NCBI GenBank assembly: GCA_000993535.1
Contig: LBWG01000005.1
Location: forward strand, 1-48,433
DNA from: Candidatus Uhrbacteria bacterium GW2011_GWF2_39_13
GTDB taxonomy: Bacteria; Patescibacteriota; Patescibacteriia; UBA9934; GWF2-40-263
Length of the DNA stretch: 48,433 nucleotides
Reading direction: 5' to 3'
Made by a program: the position numbers and the translations under genes. The notes beneath the pieces are model-generated. The model was not told the DNA's origin and made no database searches. It worked only from the letters and a program-made list of their open reading frames with translations. This document shows positions 13,300 through 25,682 of this stretch, piece by piece; position 1 is the first letter of the stretch; every line of letters starts with the position of its first letter.

Positions 13300-13346
13300 A
13301 GAGGTCTAACCTCTGCGATTGTATCCTATTAAAACACAAGTTTCAA
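13300..13346 (-). promoter_or_regulatory. mreB promoter with leader hairpin
   Basis: Minus strand TTGAAA (13341-13346), 17 bp spacer, TACAAT (13318-13323). The short leader holds a 6-bp stem with a 3-base loop (13300-13314) directly before TTTATG. The hairpin may protect the 5' end or modulate initiation; no Shine-Dalgarno is seen. Confidence 0.7.
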
Positions 13347-13402
13347 GCTTGACATTGAACATTTTTGGTGTTCATCTCTAGGAATCTCTGCATGATCTTT
13401 GT

Positions 13403-14185
13403 TTAAACGAATAGTTTCATTCTCTTTTCGGCAACCTTGAAGTATTTTTTATCTTTCTCAATCCCTATCCATTGTCTCCCAAGTTTTTGTGCCACAAAAG
13501 TTGTTGTTCCACTACCTAAAAATGGATCAAGAACAATATCGTCCTTATTTGAGGAGGCAAGAATAATGCGGCGTAACATTTCTTCTGGCTTTTGTGTAGG
13601 ATGAATTGCTCTGTTGTCCTTTCCTCTGATTCTTTCTTTTCCTTGAACGAGAGGTAGTTGCCAAACATCCCGCATTTGTTTAAGAGAACCGTCTTTTTGT
13701 TTGTCTGGGTTTAATTTTTTTAATTCTTCATAGTTAAAAATCCATTTTTTGCCTTTTACCGCCCAAACCACAAATTCAGTAGAGTGGGTAAAAACTCGTC
13801 TTGTCATGTTTGGCATCGCATTTGTTTTTTGCCAAGTAATGATGTTGTTAATTTTAAAATCCAATTGTTTCAAAACAATCATTACTTCTGCGATATTGTG
13901 ATAAGTGCAGGATATATAAATTGATCCGCCGTCTTTCAAAGTGCGATAAGCGCCGCCAATCCATTTTCGAGTAAACTGTAGGTATTCTGGTGCAGTCATC
14001 CTGTCCCATGCTTCATTTACCATGTACCAATCGCCACCTGTTTTGTTGCCCTTCCAATGCAAGCCATTGCCAGACAAGTTATATGGTGGATCGGCAAAAA
14101 TAAGATCAACAGACTCTTTATCAATTTTTGATTTGAGTATGTCTATACAATCATCGTTGTAGATAATGTTTGTTTTCATACTCAT
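13403..14185 (-). CDS. Beta-class DNA adenine/cytosine-N4 methyltransferase
   Basis: 260 aa SAM-dependent DNA methyltransferase. The catalytic motif DPPY (in [10 protein letters not shown]) comes before the SAM motif DPFLGSGTT near the C-terminus, the beta-class order. The sequence resembles DpnA-type adenine enzymes. It follows the endonuclease gene by 3 bp and is the third gene of the restriction cassette. An asymmetric type IIS site needs separate protection of each strand, which would explain two methyltransferases in one operon. An alternative start at 14179 is possible. Confidence 0.9.
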
Positions 14186-14188
14186 AAA

Positions 14189-16024
14189 TTAAAATGTTAA
14201 GCTCTTTTGCCATGACGAAATGGACGCAGGAATATTTTTGAGCCACTCGTTAGATTCGTTAAATGAATTTGATGAATTAATTATTTCATCATATAATCTG
14301 GCAATTTCGCCATGCTTCAAAAACTTATTCTCCGCTTTTATTTGAATCAGAATATTTAAAAGAGAGACGAAGTCACTTATTGATAGGGGAATTATTTTTT
14401 GTTTGCTGCCTTCGTACTCATATTTTATGGCAGTCCAAAAAGTATTGATTGTATCTCTGTGCATTTTAGGGGCTATGAACAAGCAGTAAGAGTTTTTATC
14501 ACTGTGCTTGCTTTCAAAGTCTCTCAAGTGTCTCATGACGGGCTGACCTTCGTTGTACCACTGGTCGCGCCCGGTCAACATCGTCACTTCGCAAATAGCA
14601 TTGAAACTCTCATAAAAGCATTCTATATCCGGCGTGTTGGCTGGTGCTGTAAATGTTGGTTCGTTGTCGTCTCCAACAGGATAATTTGGCTGTATTTTTA
14701 GCGCGTCATTTAGAGCATGCAAGCCGAGTGATGACAATTTTTCTAGTAATACAGGCTTATCATCGGCATTAAAAATATTTTCCAACTCTTGAATATAGGA
14801 TTTTATCGCTTCTGTGTCTTGAGATTTTCTGTGAGCCTCTTGATCTTGTAAGTTCCTTCGGTATTTTCTAAGTTCAGCAATGTATGTTTTAAGTTCAGCT
14901 TCGTGAAATTTTGAATAGTCCTGTATTTTAAGAGCGTCTACGCCTAATTCGGTTTCATAAGACTGAACATCTTCAATAAGTTTGGCGATAATTTCAATGT
15001 ACTTTTCTTTTGTTTCCCAAGGTAGCTGTGGTTGTGAAATGTCGGAAATATAATCTAAATATTTTTCTTTTAAAGCAAATGTTTTAGATTGAGCATTGTC
15101 AAAATTCAGCAAGACATTTATTTCAACCGATCTTCTTCGCTCCAAGTCAACATAAAAACTGCCACCGCGAATATAGATGTAGTTAGTTAATCGGAAGTAT
15201 CTAATGGCATTATCGCCGTAATCCTTCAAATTTTTGAGTAGTTTTTTTATTTTTTTTGAATCATCAGATTGAAGAAATTCTTTTGCAAAAGTAGTTTTAT
15301 ACTGATCAAAAATGGCCTTTTGTTCTTGTTTATTTTTTCCGTTCAATTGTTGTCGTAGAGCAATAATTTTTTCGGCATATGAATCTATATCATCAAAGTT
15401 GATTAACAATGGTCCAAATAATGAAAATTCTGCCTTACTGATGCCTTTGTCTTTTTCTCCCAATGCAAAAGATTTTTCGTTTACTTTTTGTATAAGGTGA
15501 AGTACCCCAATAAATGGCTTTATGTTATAGCCGTCAACCAATTTGTAACCAGAATTGTCAGGGTTGGGCAATTGCCATTTTATAAAGCTACTAAAAAATA
15601 TGTCTGAAAGATCATATTTATTAGATAAAAAGTCTTTGCCAAATGGTGTTATCTCTAAAATTTTATTTCGTAATCTTACAAACCCAAATTTTTTAAAAGG
15701 GTTAAAGGATTGTCGCCCTCGCATTGATGGATCTTCGTAATTTTTGCTATCAAACATTTCTTTAGCTTCATCGAAAGTTAAAGCATGTGAAAAATCAGTG
15801 AATATTTTTTTGTGGGCTTCTGATAAGCCATTTAAGAATTGCTGAGAAAAACCAGTATCTTCATTGTGTCCATATAATCGATGCTGAATCAAAAAAATTT
15901 GAAAATTTATCTGATTTTCTTTTGTCCACTCAAGACCAACAAAATTATCGACTAATACTCGTAGTTGTTCTCTTAGTCGGTAAGGACTTCTAGTAGTTGT
16001 TGTTATTGACCAAGGTTTTTTCAT
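14189..16024 (-). CDS. AlwI-family type IIS restriction endonuclease
   Basis: 611 aa. The N-terminal KPWSITTTTRSPYRLREQL and the overall length match the AlwI family, whose characterised member recognises GGATC and cuts a few bases outside the site. Recognition here is inferred, not shown. The gene lies 4 bp after the RadC-methyltransferase gene and 3 bp before the second methyltransferase. No frameshift or stop interrupts it, so the system looks intact. Confidence 0.85.
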   Translation of the reverse strand: MKKPWSITTTTRSPYRLREQLRVLVDNFVGLEWTKENQINFQIFLIQHRLYGHNEDTGFSQQFLNGLSEAHKKIFTDFSHALTFDEAKEMFDSKNYEDPSMRGRQSFNPFKKFGFVRLRNKILEITPFGKDFLSNKYDLSDIFFSSFIKWQLPNPDNSGYKLVDGYNIKPFIGVLHLIQKVNEKSFALGEKDKGISKAEFSLFGPLLINFDDIDSYAEKIIALRQQLNGKNKQEQKAIFDQYKTTFAKEFLQSDDSKKIKKLLKNLKDYGDNAIRYFRLTNYIYIRGGSFYVDLERRRSVEINVLLNFDNAQSKTFALKEKYLDYISDISQPQLPWETKEKYIEIIAKLIEDVQSYETELGVDALKIQDYSKFHEAELKTYIAELRKYRRNLQDQEAHRKSQDTEAIKSYIQELENIFNADDKPVLLEKLSSLGLHALNDALKIQPNYPVGDDNEPTFTAPANTPDIECFYESFNAICEVTMLTGRDQWYNEGQPVMRHLRDFESKHSDKNSYCLFIAPKMHRDTINTFWTAIKYEYEGSKQKIIPLSISDFVSLLNILIQIKAENKFLKHGEIARLYDEIINSSNSFNESNEWLKNIPASISSWQKSLTF

Positions 16025-16028
16025 AGTT

Positions 16029-17831
16029 TTAGTTTACTTTGCAATAAAAAATTCTTTCCGCATTTCCGTCGCCATTACTTTTACCTGCGGTAAAGGCTTT
16101 GTAGTCTCTTTCAAAAATTTCGACTTTTCCTTTATTTTTCAATATTCTCAAAATATCATTGTCGGAAATTCTGGCATTTGATCTTCCGTCTTTGGAATCG
16201 CCTGTATTATTATAAGACAATAAGATGTGTTTACAATCCGCATTTCTGATCAAATCTTCAAATACTTGCGTCGCATTTTTGAGACAGTAGGAGCTTTTAA
16301 TATGTGAACGATCCATTTTTTTTGCTACACCTACAACCTCTGGCTTCTTCCACTCGGCAAGATTTTCAAGTAAATGATAAGCATCTGAATATTGGCGTGA
16401 ATTGTAGGGTGGATCAATGTATAAGACATCACTAGAGATTTTTCTAATCAAAATATTTGCGTCTTCTTTGTAAATTTCGTTCGTCGCATTATTTGAGTAA
16501 TCAATATCTGGTGTTAGTAGTTTTACTGATTGAATCATGTCTAAATCTTTGCGAAAAGCATCATAATGTCCAACTGTATTTGCAACTTTGTCAACCGCAT
16601 ATAATAACGAACAAATGAGAGTATTTTTTTCCTCCTCGGTTTCTGTAATCTTCTCTATTTCTTCACGGATAGCTCCAATTTTTCGGGCGTTTTCTAGTGA
16701 AAAATAAGTATTTCCAAAATACTTTGAAAAATAATTATCTTCCGTAGCTTGTAGCTTATTTAGGATTTCTATTTTTTCCGCGATTTTATCAAAATTTGCG
16801 CTTGTACCAAGAAATGCTTTTAAACATGCGTAATTACTAAAAAGCAGGTCATTTGAAATAACTTTTATTTCTGGCTTATTAAATCTCTCGCCAACAACAC
16901 CTGTGCCAGCAAAAATGTCGCAAAATGATTTTATTCCGTTACACTTTTCTAAAACAATATCTTCAATAAAGCCAAGTAATTTATGCTTATTACCCAAATA
17001 TCTTCTATTGTGTAGTTGGAAAGTATTACCTCTGGCCTTTGAAAAATGAAAATGGGATTTTTCAATTTTATTTATCGTTACTTCATAAGGTGTTTTTTCA
17101 ATTTCCAGCAGATCAAAGAGTGTCCCTTGCAAGCCGTCTGCCACATAATCAAAGCTTCTGTTTTGATCTTTTAATTTTTCAAAAAAACTATAATTTCCAC
17201 TTAATGAAACAATGATGAAATCAATGACTGGGATCCCCATTATTTCTCCGGCTTGGGCTATTTTGTTCACGATTTGAGTATCCTTTTTACTAGGAGAAGG
17301 ATCATTCGAAGGATGATTATGCACCAAAATTACACTTGCCGCATTTAGCTCGGTGGCGGGATAAAAAATCTCTCTTGGATGTAATAGTGTTTTATCAAGT
17401 AGCCCAACACTCACAATTTCTTTCCTGAGTAAAACATTCCGTGCGTTTAGATAAAGACAAACAAGGTGTTCTTTCTTTTTGTCTCTTAGGTCGTAGTTTA
17501 ACGAAAAGACATCTTGTGAATTTCTTATAGTAATTTCGTTAGTTACATTGTTATCATAAAATCTTTTGACTAAAGAAATCGCAGCAGTAATTTGTAATGC
17601 TTTTGCTTGTCCAATACCCGAAATTTCTTGCAAATCTTCTACGGTAATATGCAAAAAGTCTTTGCCAAATTTTTTGATGATTTGTTGTGACAACTGTTGA
17701 ACATTTTTCCCTTTGATGCCAGTACCTAACAGGATAGCCAAAAGATCACTTTTTGAAAGTGCATCAGAGCCCTTTTTGAGGAATCTCTCTCTTGGGCGGT
17801 CTATTTTTGGTATATCCTTAATTTTTGCCAT
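16029..17831 (-). CDS. RadC-DNA adenine methyltransferase fusion
   Basis: 600 aa in one uninterrupted frame. Residues 1-223 are a complete RadC: a helix-hairpin-helix (SGIGQAKA, about 64-90) and a JAB/MPN domain whose metal motif is intact (H171-N-H173, S181, D184, with E138 upstream). A linker (about 224-275) leads to an alpha-class adenine methyltransferase starting RRYLGNK, with SAM motif FAGTG (307-311) and catalytic DPPY (473-476). It opens the restriction cassette and presumably protects one strand of the AlwI-type site. RadC function is unsettled in the family; its fusion to a methyltransferase is unusual. A palindrome on its presumed promoter suggests repression. Confidence 0.9.
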   Translation of the reverse strand: MAKIKDIPKIDRPRERFLKKGSDALSKSDLLAILLGTGIKGKNVQQLSQQIIKKFGKDFLHITVEDLQEISGIGQAKALQITAAISLVKRFYDNNVTNEITIRNSQDVFSLNYDLRDKKKEHLVCLYLNARNVLLRKEIVSVGLLDKTLLHPREIFYPATELNAASVILVHNHPSNDPSPSKKDTQIVNKIAQAGEIMGIPVIDFIIVSLSGNYSFFEKLKDQNRSFDYVADGLQGTLFDLLEIEKTPYEVTINKIEKSHFHFSKARGNTFQLHNRRYLGNKHKLLGFIEDIVLEKCNGIKSFCDIFAGTGVVGERFNKPEIKVISNDLLFSNYACLKAFLGTSANFDKIAEKIEILNKLQATEDNYFSKYFGNTYFSLENARKIGAIREEIEKITETEEEKNTLICSLLYAVDKVANTVGHYDAFRKDLDMIQSVKLLTPDIDYSNNATNEIYKEDANILIRKISSDVLYIDPPYNSRQYSDAYHLLENLAEWKKPEVVGVAKKMDRSHIKSSYCLKNATQVFEDLIRNADCKHILLSYNNTGDSKDGRSNARISDNDILRILKNKGKVEIFERDYKAFTAGKSNGDGNAERIFYCKVN

Positions 17832-17856
17832 AAATTGCTTTAAACGGTTGAATCAT

Positions 17857-17890
17857 ATTGTATTTAATGTTCCATCCTTATAAATAAGGA
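17857..17890 (-). promoter_or_regulatory. Possible promoter and operator of the restriction cassette
   Basis: Minus strand TACAAT (17857-17862) lies 25 bp upstream of the RadC-fusion ATG. At the expected -35 position there is no consensus box but a perfect palindrome, tcctta-taaa-taagga (17875-17890). The placement would suit a repressor or controller protein. Confidence 0.4.
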
Positions 17891-17943
17891 ACTTCTTAGG
17901 GCAAAAGAAAGCAATAATCAAATTAGATCTTACAAGAAATTTT

Positions 17944-18321
17944 TCAGCTGCGTTTTGTTGAGATAAAAGCCAATTCAATAAATGAGACAATCATGATGAT
18001 GAGAATTATGGTCCACCATCTAAACCATCCTTGAGAAAGAAGCAGTATGGAAGAAATGAAAATGATGGTCAATAAAATAGCCTGACGAAATGCGCGATAC
18101 GTGATTCTTGAAGAAAGTTCTTTCTCTGAACGCCAAAAACGAAAAATAAGACCTAGTAATGAAATAGTTCCAAAAGAGAGCATACTTAACGTCATGTAAA
18201 AAAGAAAAAAACCTAGATTCCCTGAACGTGCCGGATCGATGCCATAAACAACCACCAGCCAAGAAACCCAAGCTGTAAGCGTGCCAAGAGTCATGAAAAT
18301 AAGATAACTACGAAAGTTCAT
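17944..18321 (-). CDS. Four-helix membrane protein, unknown function
   Basis: 125 aa with four predicted membrane helices (about 7-27, 37-60, 80-100, 103-120) and a basic cytoplasmic loop, FRFWRSEKELSSR. I do not recognise the family. Its start overlaps the end of the DciA-like gene by 14 bp, so the two are co-transcribed. Confidence 0.75.
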   Translation of the reverse strand: MNFRSYLIFMTLGTLTAWVSWLVVVYGIDPARSGNLGFFLFYMTLSMLSFGTISLLGLIFRFWRSEKELSSRITYRAFRQAILLTIIFISSILLLSQGWFRWWTIILIIMIVSFIELAFISTKRS

Positions 18322-18634
18322 AACGAGATGGTTCTTTTGAAAGAAACGAAGAAATTTGTTTAATAGAACTTGAAGGAAATTCTTCTTGTAATTTCATTAG
18401 AAGAATCTGCTCGATTCCTTTGAGAGCATATCTTGCAGCTGAATTTTTCACACGCAATCGCACAATTCCCTCTTTAAAAGAAATAGCAACAACATCATAG
18501 GCTTGCATTCCCGGAAGCTGGCCTGGAATGATGCGATTTGCTGCTTCAACAATCATTGCAGCCTTTACGGATTTTCGAATACCGGCTCTATTGAGCGAAC
18601 CAGAAAGAAGATGTCGAAGAGAAGAAAGAGCCAT
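18308..18634 (-). CDS. DciA-like (DUF721) protein
   Basis: 108 aa. The KH-like core (VVAISFKEGIVRLRVKNSAARYAL ... KGIEQILLMKLQEEF, given in parts) resembles DUF721/DciA, the ancestral loader of the replicative helicase in bacteria without DnaC. The N-terminal basic helix is short. The family call is by pattern only. It leads a two-gene operon with an extended -10 box 8 bp before the ATG. Confidence 0.6.
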   Translation of the reverse strand: MALSSLRHLLSGSLNRAGIRKSVKAAMIVEAANRIIPGQLPGMQAYDVVAISFKEGIVRLRVKNSAARYALKGIEQILLMKLQEEFPSSSIKQISSFLSKEPSRYELS

Positions 18635-18642
18635 AGAACTCT

Positions 18643-18741: not shown

Positions 18742-19077
18742 CTAATCGATAGGAACCCAATCAAAGTCTGCACCCTCATTTAAAACAAATTCGAACTTAA
18801 TTTTTTCACTCAGCGCATAAAATACAAATCGATGGGTTTGAAATTCTTCATTAAAATAGTCGTAAAGTGTAATCACTTCCTGTGTTGCAAATTTAACCCC
18901 GATTTCTTCATTGATTTCTCTGATAAAACAATCGACTGGCGTTTCCTCACCTTCATTTAAACCACCAAAAAATGCCCAGGAATTTGGATTAAATATTGTA
19001 TTTGAATCACGTTTATGCAACAAAACGCAATTATTTTTGAGATGATATAAAAATCCGCCAGCCCAGAATTTTTTCAT
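18742..19077 (-). CDS. Nudix hydrolase
   Basis: 111 aa with a complete Nudix box starting GGLNEGEE and ending REINEEIGV. It is shorter than most Nudix proteins but begins with the expected first strand (GGFLYHLKNNCVLLHKR). The substrate is unknown. It stands alone between the DciA-like gene and the helicase; a dispersed palindromic repeat lies just upstream. Confidence 0.85.
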   Translation of the reverse strand: MKKFWAGGFLYHLKNNCVLLHKRDSNTIFNPNSWAFFGGLNEGEETPVDCFIREINEEIGVKFATQEVITLYDYFNEEFQTHRFVFYALSEKIKFEFVLNEGADFDWVPID

Positions 19078-24173: not shown

Positions 24174-24746
24174 CTAACGCCAACCTAAACGAGATGCCTT
24201 CTCTTTCCAAAACTCCATCCACTTGGTGTAAGAAATGAAATAGGTTCTGCGTCTGCCTGTTCCGTAGTCCACATGGACGAAGCACAGTACTTTGTTCGTA
24301 CTGTCGATTTCCTTGACACGTTCTTTGGCACGCATCAAAAAGACGATCTGATTGACCAGATTCAACTTGGCCAATCCAGCTGCTCCGCAAGGGACATGGA
24401 TATAAAGGAACACAGTCCCAATCCCCTTGAGGTCTTTTCCTTCAGCCTCACGGATGTGTTGAAGGAGAAGTTCGTCCACTCTGAACTCTTGATAGAGTGG
24501 GCAGTCTTCAGCCATAAGCATTGCCCCACCATGAAGCGAGAGCACATGCGGACGAACTGGCCAACCGCCCTTATCAGCAAGCTCGCACTGGTGAGAGAAC
24601 ATGTCGGGCATTTGATCACCATCTGCACATGTCACGACAATTTCTCCATCAGGAGACTCAAGCTTTTGCGTGTTTCCATCCTCGAAGATACCTTCCCTAC
24701 GCAGAACCTTTATGACTTCCATATCAAACTGAGTCCATTTTCCCAT
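24174..24746 (-). CDS. Divergent beta-carbonic-anhydrase-like protein 1
   Basis: 190 aa from the ATG at 24746, which has GGAGG 7 bases upstream; an ATG at 24791 would lie inside the promoter. C40-x-D42 (CADGD) and H117-x-x-C120 (HVPCGAAG) match the zinc-binding CxDxR and HxxC motifs of beta-carbonic anhydrases, and HVDYGTGR matches the later strand before a tG turn. The arginine of CxDxR is replaced by D44, so ordinary carbonic anhydrase activity is doubtful. A second member of the family lies upstream at 24864. It has its own consensus promoter and terminator. Confidence 0.6.
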   Translation of the reverse strand: MGKWTQFDMEVIKVLRREGIFEDGNTQKLESPDGEIVVTCADGDQMPDMFSHQCELADKGGWPVRPHVLSLHGGAMLMAEDCPLYQEFRVDELLLQHIREAEGKDLKGIGTVFLYIHVPCGAAGLAKLNLVNQIVFLMRAKERVKEIDSTNKVLCFVHVDYGTGRRRTYFISYTKWMEFWKEKASRLGWR

Positions 24747-24792
24747 CCGTTTTCCTCCATTTTCATGAGAAAGGAATAAATTGGCTGGCAAA

Positions 24793-24863: not shown

Positions 24864-25682
24864 TTATGCGGCAAGAGACCATTCCTCCTCAGATAAAGAG
24901 GTTTCTTCATTAGTTCTTACAGTCCAAGTATCAAGTTTAATAGGTTTATCCCTATGAGAGGAAAGGAAGTTTTCGAAATCCTTGCGTAATTGATTTGTGG
25001 AGTATTCACCAGAGCCTTCTTCTCCCAGAGCAATCAAAATCAATGGCATATCTTGAGAAAATTTTTTTCCAAATCCATGATCCCCCATGGCAATACTCAT
25101 AGCAATCTGTACTTCTGACACCGTTTGTGTTTGAGACATGTATCTACGGCTGACCACAAAACCTTGAGGAAGTCCTTCAACCAAAGATGGGTTAAAGCGA
25201 CCTGTTGCATCTATATAAATAACCCGAGCATTATGAAACTCCTTGGGTCTATTTAAATCTTCTCGATGACCTGTGTAAGGAACACCTAATTCTTCTGCCA
25301 TTCGGTTTGCTCCTTCTATGGCCACTTCGTCAGTGGTTTTATCGATAATCCCCTTTTTTTCACGGTATAATCCAGCTGCTCCGCAACTAACATGGCTCGT
25401 GACTTCTTTTACGCCAGCTTCTTTTAAATTTTTAATAAAGATTCGGCGTTCTTCACCTTCAAGAAGAATTCCTGAACCTGCACAACGCATGTCGCCAAAA
25501 GGAGTTCCTTCATCAATACAACATAACGTATGATTTTCCGACTTAAAAGTATCAGAAATAGACTCAAGTCTCTGTGCGTAGACCTGTATCCCGCACTCTA
25601 AAAGAGATTCGATCATATGATTTTGGTGCAACCACGCCTGTTCTTTCTCTCTTTCACAATGAGATTCCTGTTCAATAGACAT
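24864..25682 (-). CDS. Divergent beta-carbonic-anhydrase-like protein 2
   Basis: 272 aa. C55-x-D57 (CIDEG) is followed by a DMRCAGSGIL segment recalling the RNAGN strand of beta-carbonic anhydrases, then H97-x-x-C100 (HVSCGAAGL), which shares CGAAGL with protein 1, and a VIYIDATGRF strand. The arginine of CxDxR is missing. An acidic C-terminal extension (about 200-272) is not recognised. It starts 12 bp after atpC and has no clear promoter, so it is probably read from the ATP synthase operon. Function unknown; a zinc-dependent enzyme on a small carboxylated or carbonyl substrate is only a guess. Confidence 0.6.
   Translation of the reverse strand: MSIEQESHCEREKEQAWLHQNHMIESLLECGIQVYAQRLESISDTFKSENHTLCCIDEGTPFGDMRCAGSGILLEGEERRIFIKNLKEAGVKEVTSHVSCGAAGLYREKKGIIDKTTDEVAIEGANRMAEELGVPYTGHREDLNRPKEFHNARVIYIDATGRFNPSLVEGLPQGFVVSRRYMSQTQTVSEVQIAMSIAMGDHGFGKKFSQDMPLILIALGEEGSGEYSTNQLRKDFENFLSSHRDKPIKLDTWTVRTNEETSLSEEEWSLAA

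Follow-up and report, generated by a model that had tools for sequence, protein, structure and literature searches.

What does a RadC protein do at the head of a restriction-modification (R-M) methyltransferase? This question is raised by a gene of Candidatus Uhrbacteria bacterium GW2011_GWF2_39_13, located in the stretch of 48,433 nucleotides of contig LBWG01000005.1 that was analysed here and is called the window below. According to an earlier note on this DNA, a complete RadC is joined there in one frame to an alpha-class adenine methyltransferase, inside an AlwI-type operon; RadC was supposed to act on or near modified or cut DNA, or to control the enzyme by proteolysis or metal-dependent cleavage. 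RadC has no accepted biochemical activity, and claims of its role in DNA repair are disputed (PMC5512222, PMC11981726). The features of the locus are collected in Table 1.

Table 1. Coordinates of the fusion gene, its parts and the surrounding cassette in the window
Feature	Position	Strand	Remarks
RadC-D12 methyltransferase fusion gene	16029..17831	minus	600 aa; ATG at 17831, stop at 16029
UPF0758_N / helix-hairpin-helix part of RadC	17598..17822	minus	residues 4-78, Pfam
RadC JAB/JAMM domain	17178..17528	minus	residues 102-218, Pfam; fold match 2QLC
JAMM metal site H171-x-H173-P...S181-x-x-D184	17280..17321	minus	invariant in alignments
E121 codon, most likely the JAMM glutamate	17469-17471	minus	
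Linker	17001..17177	minus	residues 219-277, mostly low confidence in AlphaFold model
QGTLF, predicted sliding-clamp-binding motif	17115..17129	minus	residues 235-239
D12-class (alpha, Dam-like) N6-adenine methyltransferase domain	16239..17000	minus	residues 278-531, Pfam
AlwI-family type II (type IIS-like) restriction endonuclease	14189..16024	minus	611 aa; PF09491, PADLOC REase_II
Second modification methyltransferase (N6_N4_Mtase, CcrM-like)	13403..14185	minus	260 aa; PF01555 1e-64
Acquired cassette, approximate bounds	13304..17950	.	between mreB and 17960-18636 region

The frame of the fusion gene was found to be unbroken in an open reading frame check, and all Pfam domains of its product scored far over the cut-offs: UPF0758_N (2.7e-23), RadC (PF04002; 2.2e-35, 121.6 bits versus a cut-off of 22.1) and MethyltransfD12 (PF02086; 1.3e-35, 123.8 bits versus 22). 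The NCBIfam RadC model NF000642 matched the first 219 residues (5.4e-64, 215.7 bits, cut-off 180), and similarity to methyltransferases reached residue 599 in PADLOC models. With the RadC/UPF0758 family (PF20582 and PF04002; structure 2QLC) the module shares the N-terminal part bearing the helix-hairpin-helix (HhH), the JAB fold and the complete JAMM set; E121, which is most likely the JAMM glutamate of the window protein, as well as H171, H173, S181 and D184 are invariant across 61 RadC proteins, both fused and unfused. In the methyltransferase part FAGTG (motif I) precedes DPPY (motif IV), which is the order of the alpha-class, D12 enzymes. Both halves are thus what the earlier note took them for, with the HhH, H171, H173, S181 and D184 as described. 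The one-frame fusion was confirmed as well: the same architecture recurs in homologues on independent contigs, with 55-83% identity over the entire protein, and an assembly or frameshift artefact is therefore ruled out.

RadC and most of the methyltransferase were confidently predicted in an AlphaFold model of the fusion, based on an alignment of 61 sequences (mean pLDDT 74.2), which replaced a version based on 23 sequences (mean pLDDT 53.6). When compared with the RadC structure 2QLC, the modelled fold gave a TM score of 0.90 to the target and an rmsd of 1.5-1.7. For the second half of the model, weaker structural matches to Dam, T4Dam and DpnM were obtained.

The fusion is followed in its operon by the genes of the AlwI-type endonuclease (RE_AlwI, 1.9e-81, 274.8 bits versus a cut-off of 23.1; PADLOC REase_II, 5e-126) and of the CcrM-like N6_N4 methyltransferase, in agreement with the operon context noted earlier. 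Two methyltransferases are encoded in this operon, one as the D12 part of the fusion and one as a separate gene. In four congeners an empty site was found, where mreB directly adjoins the homologue of window 17960-18636; the cassette of roughly 4.6 kb is thus an insertion. Direct repeats were sought at its ends, and only chance-like matches were detected. Insertion beside a native radC-mreB pair was ruled out, since the neighbour of mreB in the congeners is the homologue of the non-RadC region 17960-18636. From the sequence and its context we propose that the fusion gene encodes the modification, that is host-protecting, enzyme of a mobile type II R-M cassette. AlwI-family plasmid systems of Staphylococcus, Enterococcus, Lactococcus and Priestia also combine an AlwI-family endonuclease with a D12 methyltransferase, 47-49% identical. 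However, the N-terminus of their methyltransferase is an HTH-like segment or absent where the window enzyme has RadC. Moreover, these plasmid methyltransferases have about 700 aa where annotated, a length suggestive of a second D12 domain, whereas the second methyltransferase of the window cassette is the separate CcrM-like gene.

Two further observations concern the neighbourhood of the cassette. A Nudix-domain gene (PF00293; window 18742-19077) lies in a stretch that is absent at the corresponding place of the compared congeners, reflecting either a second small insertion beside the R-M cassette or losses in the congeners. The neighbouring frames at window 24174-24791 and 24864-25682 have a common CGAAGL motif, and possibly form one paralogous family with a HANCGAAKK protein at L012:1069-2049.

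Whether any other genome carries such a fusion had been left by the earlier note to a search, and many do. Altogether about 30 loci carry it; apart from one archaeal MAG, they belong to Patescibacteria, Nitrospirota, Omnitrophota and Desulfobacterota. When GTDB species genomes were scanned, 24 loci with 58-84% best-segment identity were obtained, most of them with a full or nearly full RadC-methyltransferase frame, the rest being cut by contig ends or decayed. Sampled genomes of Patescibacteria, Nitrospirota and Omnitrophota contained further fusions at a frequency of about 1-2% of genomes, and the fusion was rarer in the phylum of locus L014 (1/297 genomes) and in that of L006 (1/194 genomes). 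Most loci are MAG contigs, whose assigned taxon may be wrong and of which single cases are possibly misbinned; L016 and L022 have identical RadC parts though assigned to two different phyla. In the window genome (69% complete) the fusion was the only RadC found, and any RadC occurs in 3 of the 39 genomes of the order, this genome included. Replacement of the host's own RadC is not a general explanation, as several larger genomes also hold a standalone RadC. A phage or plasmid origin was rejected as well, the full fusion not having been found in the viral contigs and the phage and plasmid collections searched. No published account of a RadC-methyltransferase fusion was encountered in the literature searched, and an earlier description may still exist.

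A tree was built from 88 RadC sequences, and in it the fused RadCs formed one clade (SH-aLRT 95); four further members of this clade are truncated or cut, and L200, an unrelated in-frame read-through described below, falls outside it. The clade does not follow host taxonomy, and the fusion family is a horizontally travelling one. Its methyltransferases and endonucleases are of several types. Type A is that of the window, with a D12 methyltransferase, an AlwI endonuclease and a CcrM-like methyltransferase; in type B the D12 methyltransferase is about 38-49% identical to that of type A, the endonuclease is a distant AlwI-family enzyme of 505 aa, and the second methyltransferase is a D12 enzyme of 301 aa. 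In type C (L061, with a cut copy in L197) RadC is joined to a C5 cytosine methyltransferase followed by an RE_HpaII gene. This is the gene order of HpaII-type R-M systems, but the L061 methyltransferase has the RadC head and the linker of the adenine enzymes. In type D (L199) the partner is another C5 methyltransferase, and the next gene has the NgoFVII C-terminal domain (RE_NgoFVII_C). The existence of types C and D indicates that the RadC head is bound neither to adenine methylation nor to AlwI.

A PLD-like gene (PF13091, with an NgoFVII-like N-terminus) was observed directly behind a truncated fusion in four decayed or recombined RadC-methyltransferase cassettes (L018:7662-8579, L019:6984-8754, L023:6819-7736 and L025:633-2404). 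These genes are 71-79% identical across different phyla, and a Bro-N gene is present in two of the four cassettes.

Types A and B are intermixed in the RadC clade, 7 changes of type are needed, and trees with A or B as a single clade were both rejected (p-AU 0.000125 and 0.000572, respectively). L002 (type A) and L012 (type B) are 92% identical in RadC and 44% in the methyltransferase, versus 80% and 86% for L002 and the window, both of type A. At the nucleotide level the identity of L002 and L012 is 81-90% up to about codon 240 and afterwards 61 to 45%; between partner types the drop is located at about codons 240-255, immediately past the linker motif. The histories of RadC and methyltransferase are thus in conflict, indicating that partners were swapped behind a constant RadC module. 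RadC codons are under purifying selection, with NG86 dN/dS of about 0.03-0.1 in pairs whose dS is about 1.4 or lower, the dS of distant pairs being saturated. We propose that the RadC module of an R-M-associated lineage was acquired once and has been kept constant since.

The flexible linker between RadC and methyltransferase (linker peptide in the window fusion, YVADGLQGTLFDLLE) contains a short motif which the earlier note had missed. Of 32 fused linkers, from all partner types, 30 have QxxLF, and the other two read QFSLL and QLSIF. In L009 the motif is QLSLF, and the consensus for binding of the bacterial sliding clamp is QL(S/D)LF (PMC9690074). The background of QxxLF is about 0.005 occurrences per 50 residues (0.5%). 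Standalone RadCs, of which the nearest are 45-49% identical to the fused module, end mostly some 10-15 residues past the JAB domain, whereas the fused RadCs continue through the QxxLF linker into the methyltransferase; in the standalone proteins examined QxxLF was absent past the JAB domain, one tail having the weaker QKNLL. The conservation of the motif in the fusions, its low background, its likeness to the bacterial clamp consensus and its absence from standalone RadCs make binding of the fused linker to the sliding clamp DnaN a fair prediction. DinB was sought as a yardstick for the clamp motif, and none was found in the incomplete host genome. A related observation was made in L277, an Enterococcus plasmid, where the RadC-less methyltransferase of an AlwI system (701 aa) has QLELF at residue 59, past the HTH-like N-terminus and ahead of the first D12 domain, a position corresponding to that of the fused-linker motif.

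The association of this RadC lineage with R-M genes extends beyond fused proteins. A DNA methyltransferase gene lay within 4.5 kb of 6 of the 10 Patescibacteria standalone RadCs that most resemble the module; the corresponding counts were 0 of 10 for less similar standalone RadCs and 0 of 20 for control stretches at a distance of 30 kb (Fisher p=0.011 for 6/10 vs 0/10, p=0.020 for 6/20 vs 0/20). Genes of standalone RadCs akin to the module often precede, in the same direction, those of type I, IIG, III or C5 methyltransferases, and in 18 RadC/methyltransferase pairs the strand was the same in 18/18 and RadC lay upstream in 17/18, as in the fusion. These proportions are not population rates, because the pairs were selected for proximity and the neighbouring methyltransferases were detected by similarity to previously identified proteins together with the PPY motif; moreover, similarity was part of the basis on which the standalone RadCs were chosen, and those of the second batch included cut contigs. 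Defence islands may be a partial cause of the proximity. As to the earlier supposition that RadC acts on or near modified or cut DNA, a general link to modified or restricted DNA did gain support, broader than the one then drawn: one RadC clade is fused to two methyltransferase chemistries, and related standalone RadCs lie upstream of R-M genes. The fusion, the AlwI cassette and the RadC-R-M link of the earlier note have therefore stood, and its scope proved too narrow, the exchange of partners having escaped it too.

Three other RadC arrangements were observed besides. At L200:981-2441 a standalone-type RadC (46% identical to the module) continues in frame into 270 residues with a resemblance, judged by eye, to the C-terminal endonuclease portion of type III Res proteins; this is probably a remnant of a RadC next to a type III system. 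On a single strand, L160:574-5874 encodes RadC, DarT-like and ADP-ribosylglycohydrolase-like proteins and a type III R-M system, the middle genes being assigned by eye. In two genomes of the phylum of L005, a small protein, PIN-like by eye (MxKIYLDTNxYNRPFDDQA), is encoded between RadC and the type III methyltransferase gene (L206:5490-5933 and L264:3746-4189).

The explanation that we favour for the fused form would involve coupling of modification to replication. The methyltransferase, the endonuclease and the second methyltransferase are exchanged behind the constant RadC module, and the linker would dock the fusion protein on the replication sliding clamp through QxxLF. New half-methylated DNA could then be methylated ahead of cutting by the partner endonuclease, and the RadC head, with its DNA-binding HhH and metal-dependent JAB site, might work on fork DNA, or on breaks made there by the R-M system. 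We give about even chances to such a replication-coupled modification methyltransferase, with an R-M-specialised RadC as its constant head and exchanged partners; clamp binding, replication coupling and RadC chemistry are inferred. A eukaryotic precedent for a methyltransferase with a sliding-clamp-binding peptide is the DNMT1-PCNA coupling (PMC9690074), in which the peptide likewise lies outside the catalytic domain. The parallel is a predicted one, and the fusion differs in its bacterial clamp motif, restriction context and RadC head, with no homology between the two. On the other hand, AlwI-type systems of Gram-positive plasmids occur without RadC, which is a counterpoint to the model.

Alternatively, the RadC head could be a regulator, its HhH binding DNA near the operon and tuning how far the modification enzyme is expressed or how active it is, in substitution for the HTH of unfused relatives. 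Indeed, an HTH-like N-terminal segment (by eye) occupies the same place in the unfused AlwI-type homologues from Staphylococcus, Enterococcus and Lactococcus plasmids, some methyltransferases with an N-terminal HTH repress their own promoters, and the fusion gene stands first in its operon. However, a regulator that does no more than bind DNA could dispense with the metal site, all of which is invariant, and should need operon-specific sites, whereas one module is shared by unrelated operons and different methyltransferases; we consider this role unlikely. The invariance of the metal site, together with the kept linker motif and the purifying selection on the protein, also speaks against a segment acting mainly as a recombination handle, i.e. 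a conserved homology arm for cassette exchange with little function as a protein. Crossovers between partner types directly behind the RadC segment would fit such a role, as would the retention of the 5' RadC end in the decayed cassettes L019, L023 and L025, but related standalone RadCs adjoin R-M genes without any fusion, and a mere handle appears quite improbable to us.

The same metal site would be expected of a JAMM peptidase, which might control R-M enzymes through cleavage of a protein partner. The JAB fold, with intact E/H/H/S/D and 2QLC, a JAB-fold RadC, as the best fold match, is in accordance with this, and a recent review stresses the metalloprotease-like fold of RadC, remarks on the absence of tests, and describes the characterised JAMM enzymes as isopeptidases (PMC11981726). 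However, a family scan recognised no ubiquitin-like gene in the operons examined, and the module is common to cassettes with unrelated endonucleases of AlwI, HpaII and NgoFVII types. According to a published analysis, RadC is also devoid of the ubiquitin-tail groove and probably serves to process nucleic acids or nucleotides (PMC5512222). Cleavage of a partner is thus very doubtful, and the control by proteolysis envisaged earlier found no support in our analysis.

RadC is likewise joined to nucleic-acid enzymes, partly in conflict systems, in polyvalent proteins and RadC-DinG fusions; unlike the R-M fusions described here, these are phage or conjugative multidomain proteins or helicases, and the available parts of the two publications contain no description of D12 and C5 R-M fusions or of the linker motif (PMC5512222, PMC11981726). 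A polyvalent protein is a multidomain early effector of phages or conjugative elements, whereas this cassette lies between chromosomal genes and full fusions were absent from the phage, plasmid and viral sequences searched.

Returning to the replication-coupled model, a wider version of it may tentatively be put forward, and we hold it to be somewhat improbable as a whole: one RadC lineage would be a general accessory of all R-M types, and its fused form a replication-coupled modification enzyme, a bacterial counterpart of DNMT1-PCNA, protecting daughter DNA or handling breaks before self-restriction. RadC is present in many bacteria and has been for decades without an agreed function. A RadC lineage that travels and is fused with varied R-M methyltransferases narrows the problem to a testable question, namely the role of RadC in modification or self-protection. 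Should the linker really be bound by the clamp, restriction-modification would come with its own coupling to replication, and the way in which newly replicated host DNA is spared would be explained.
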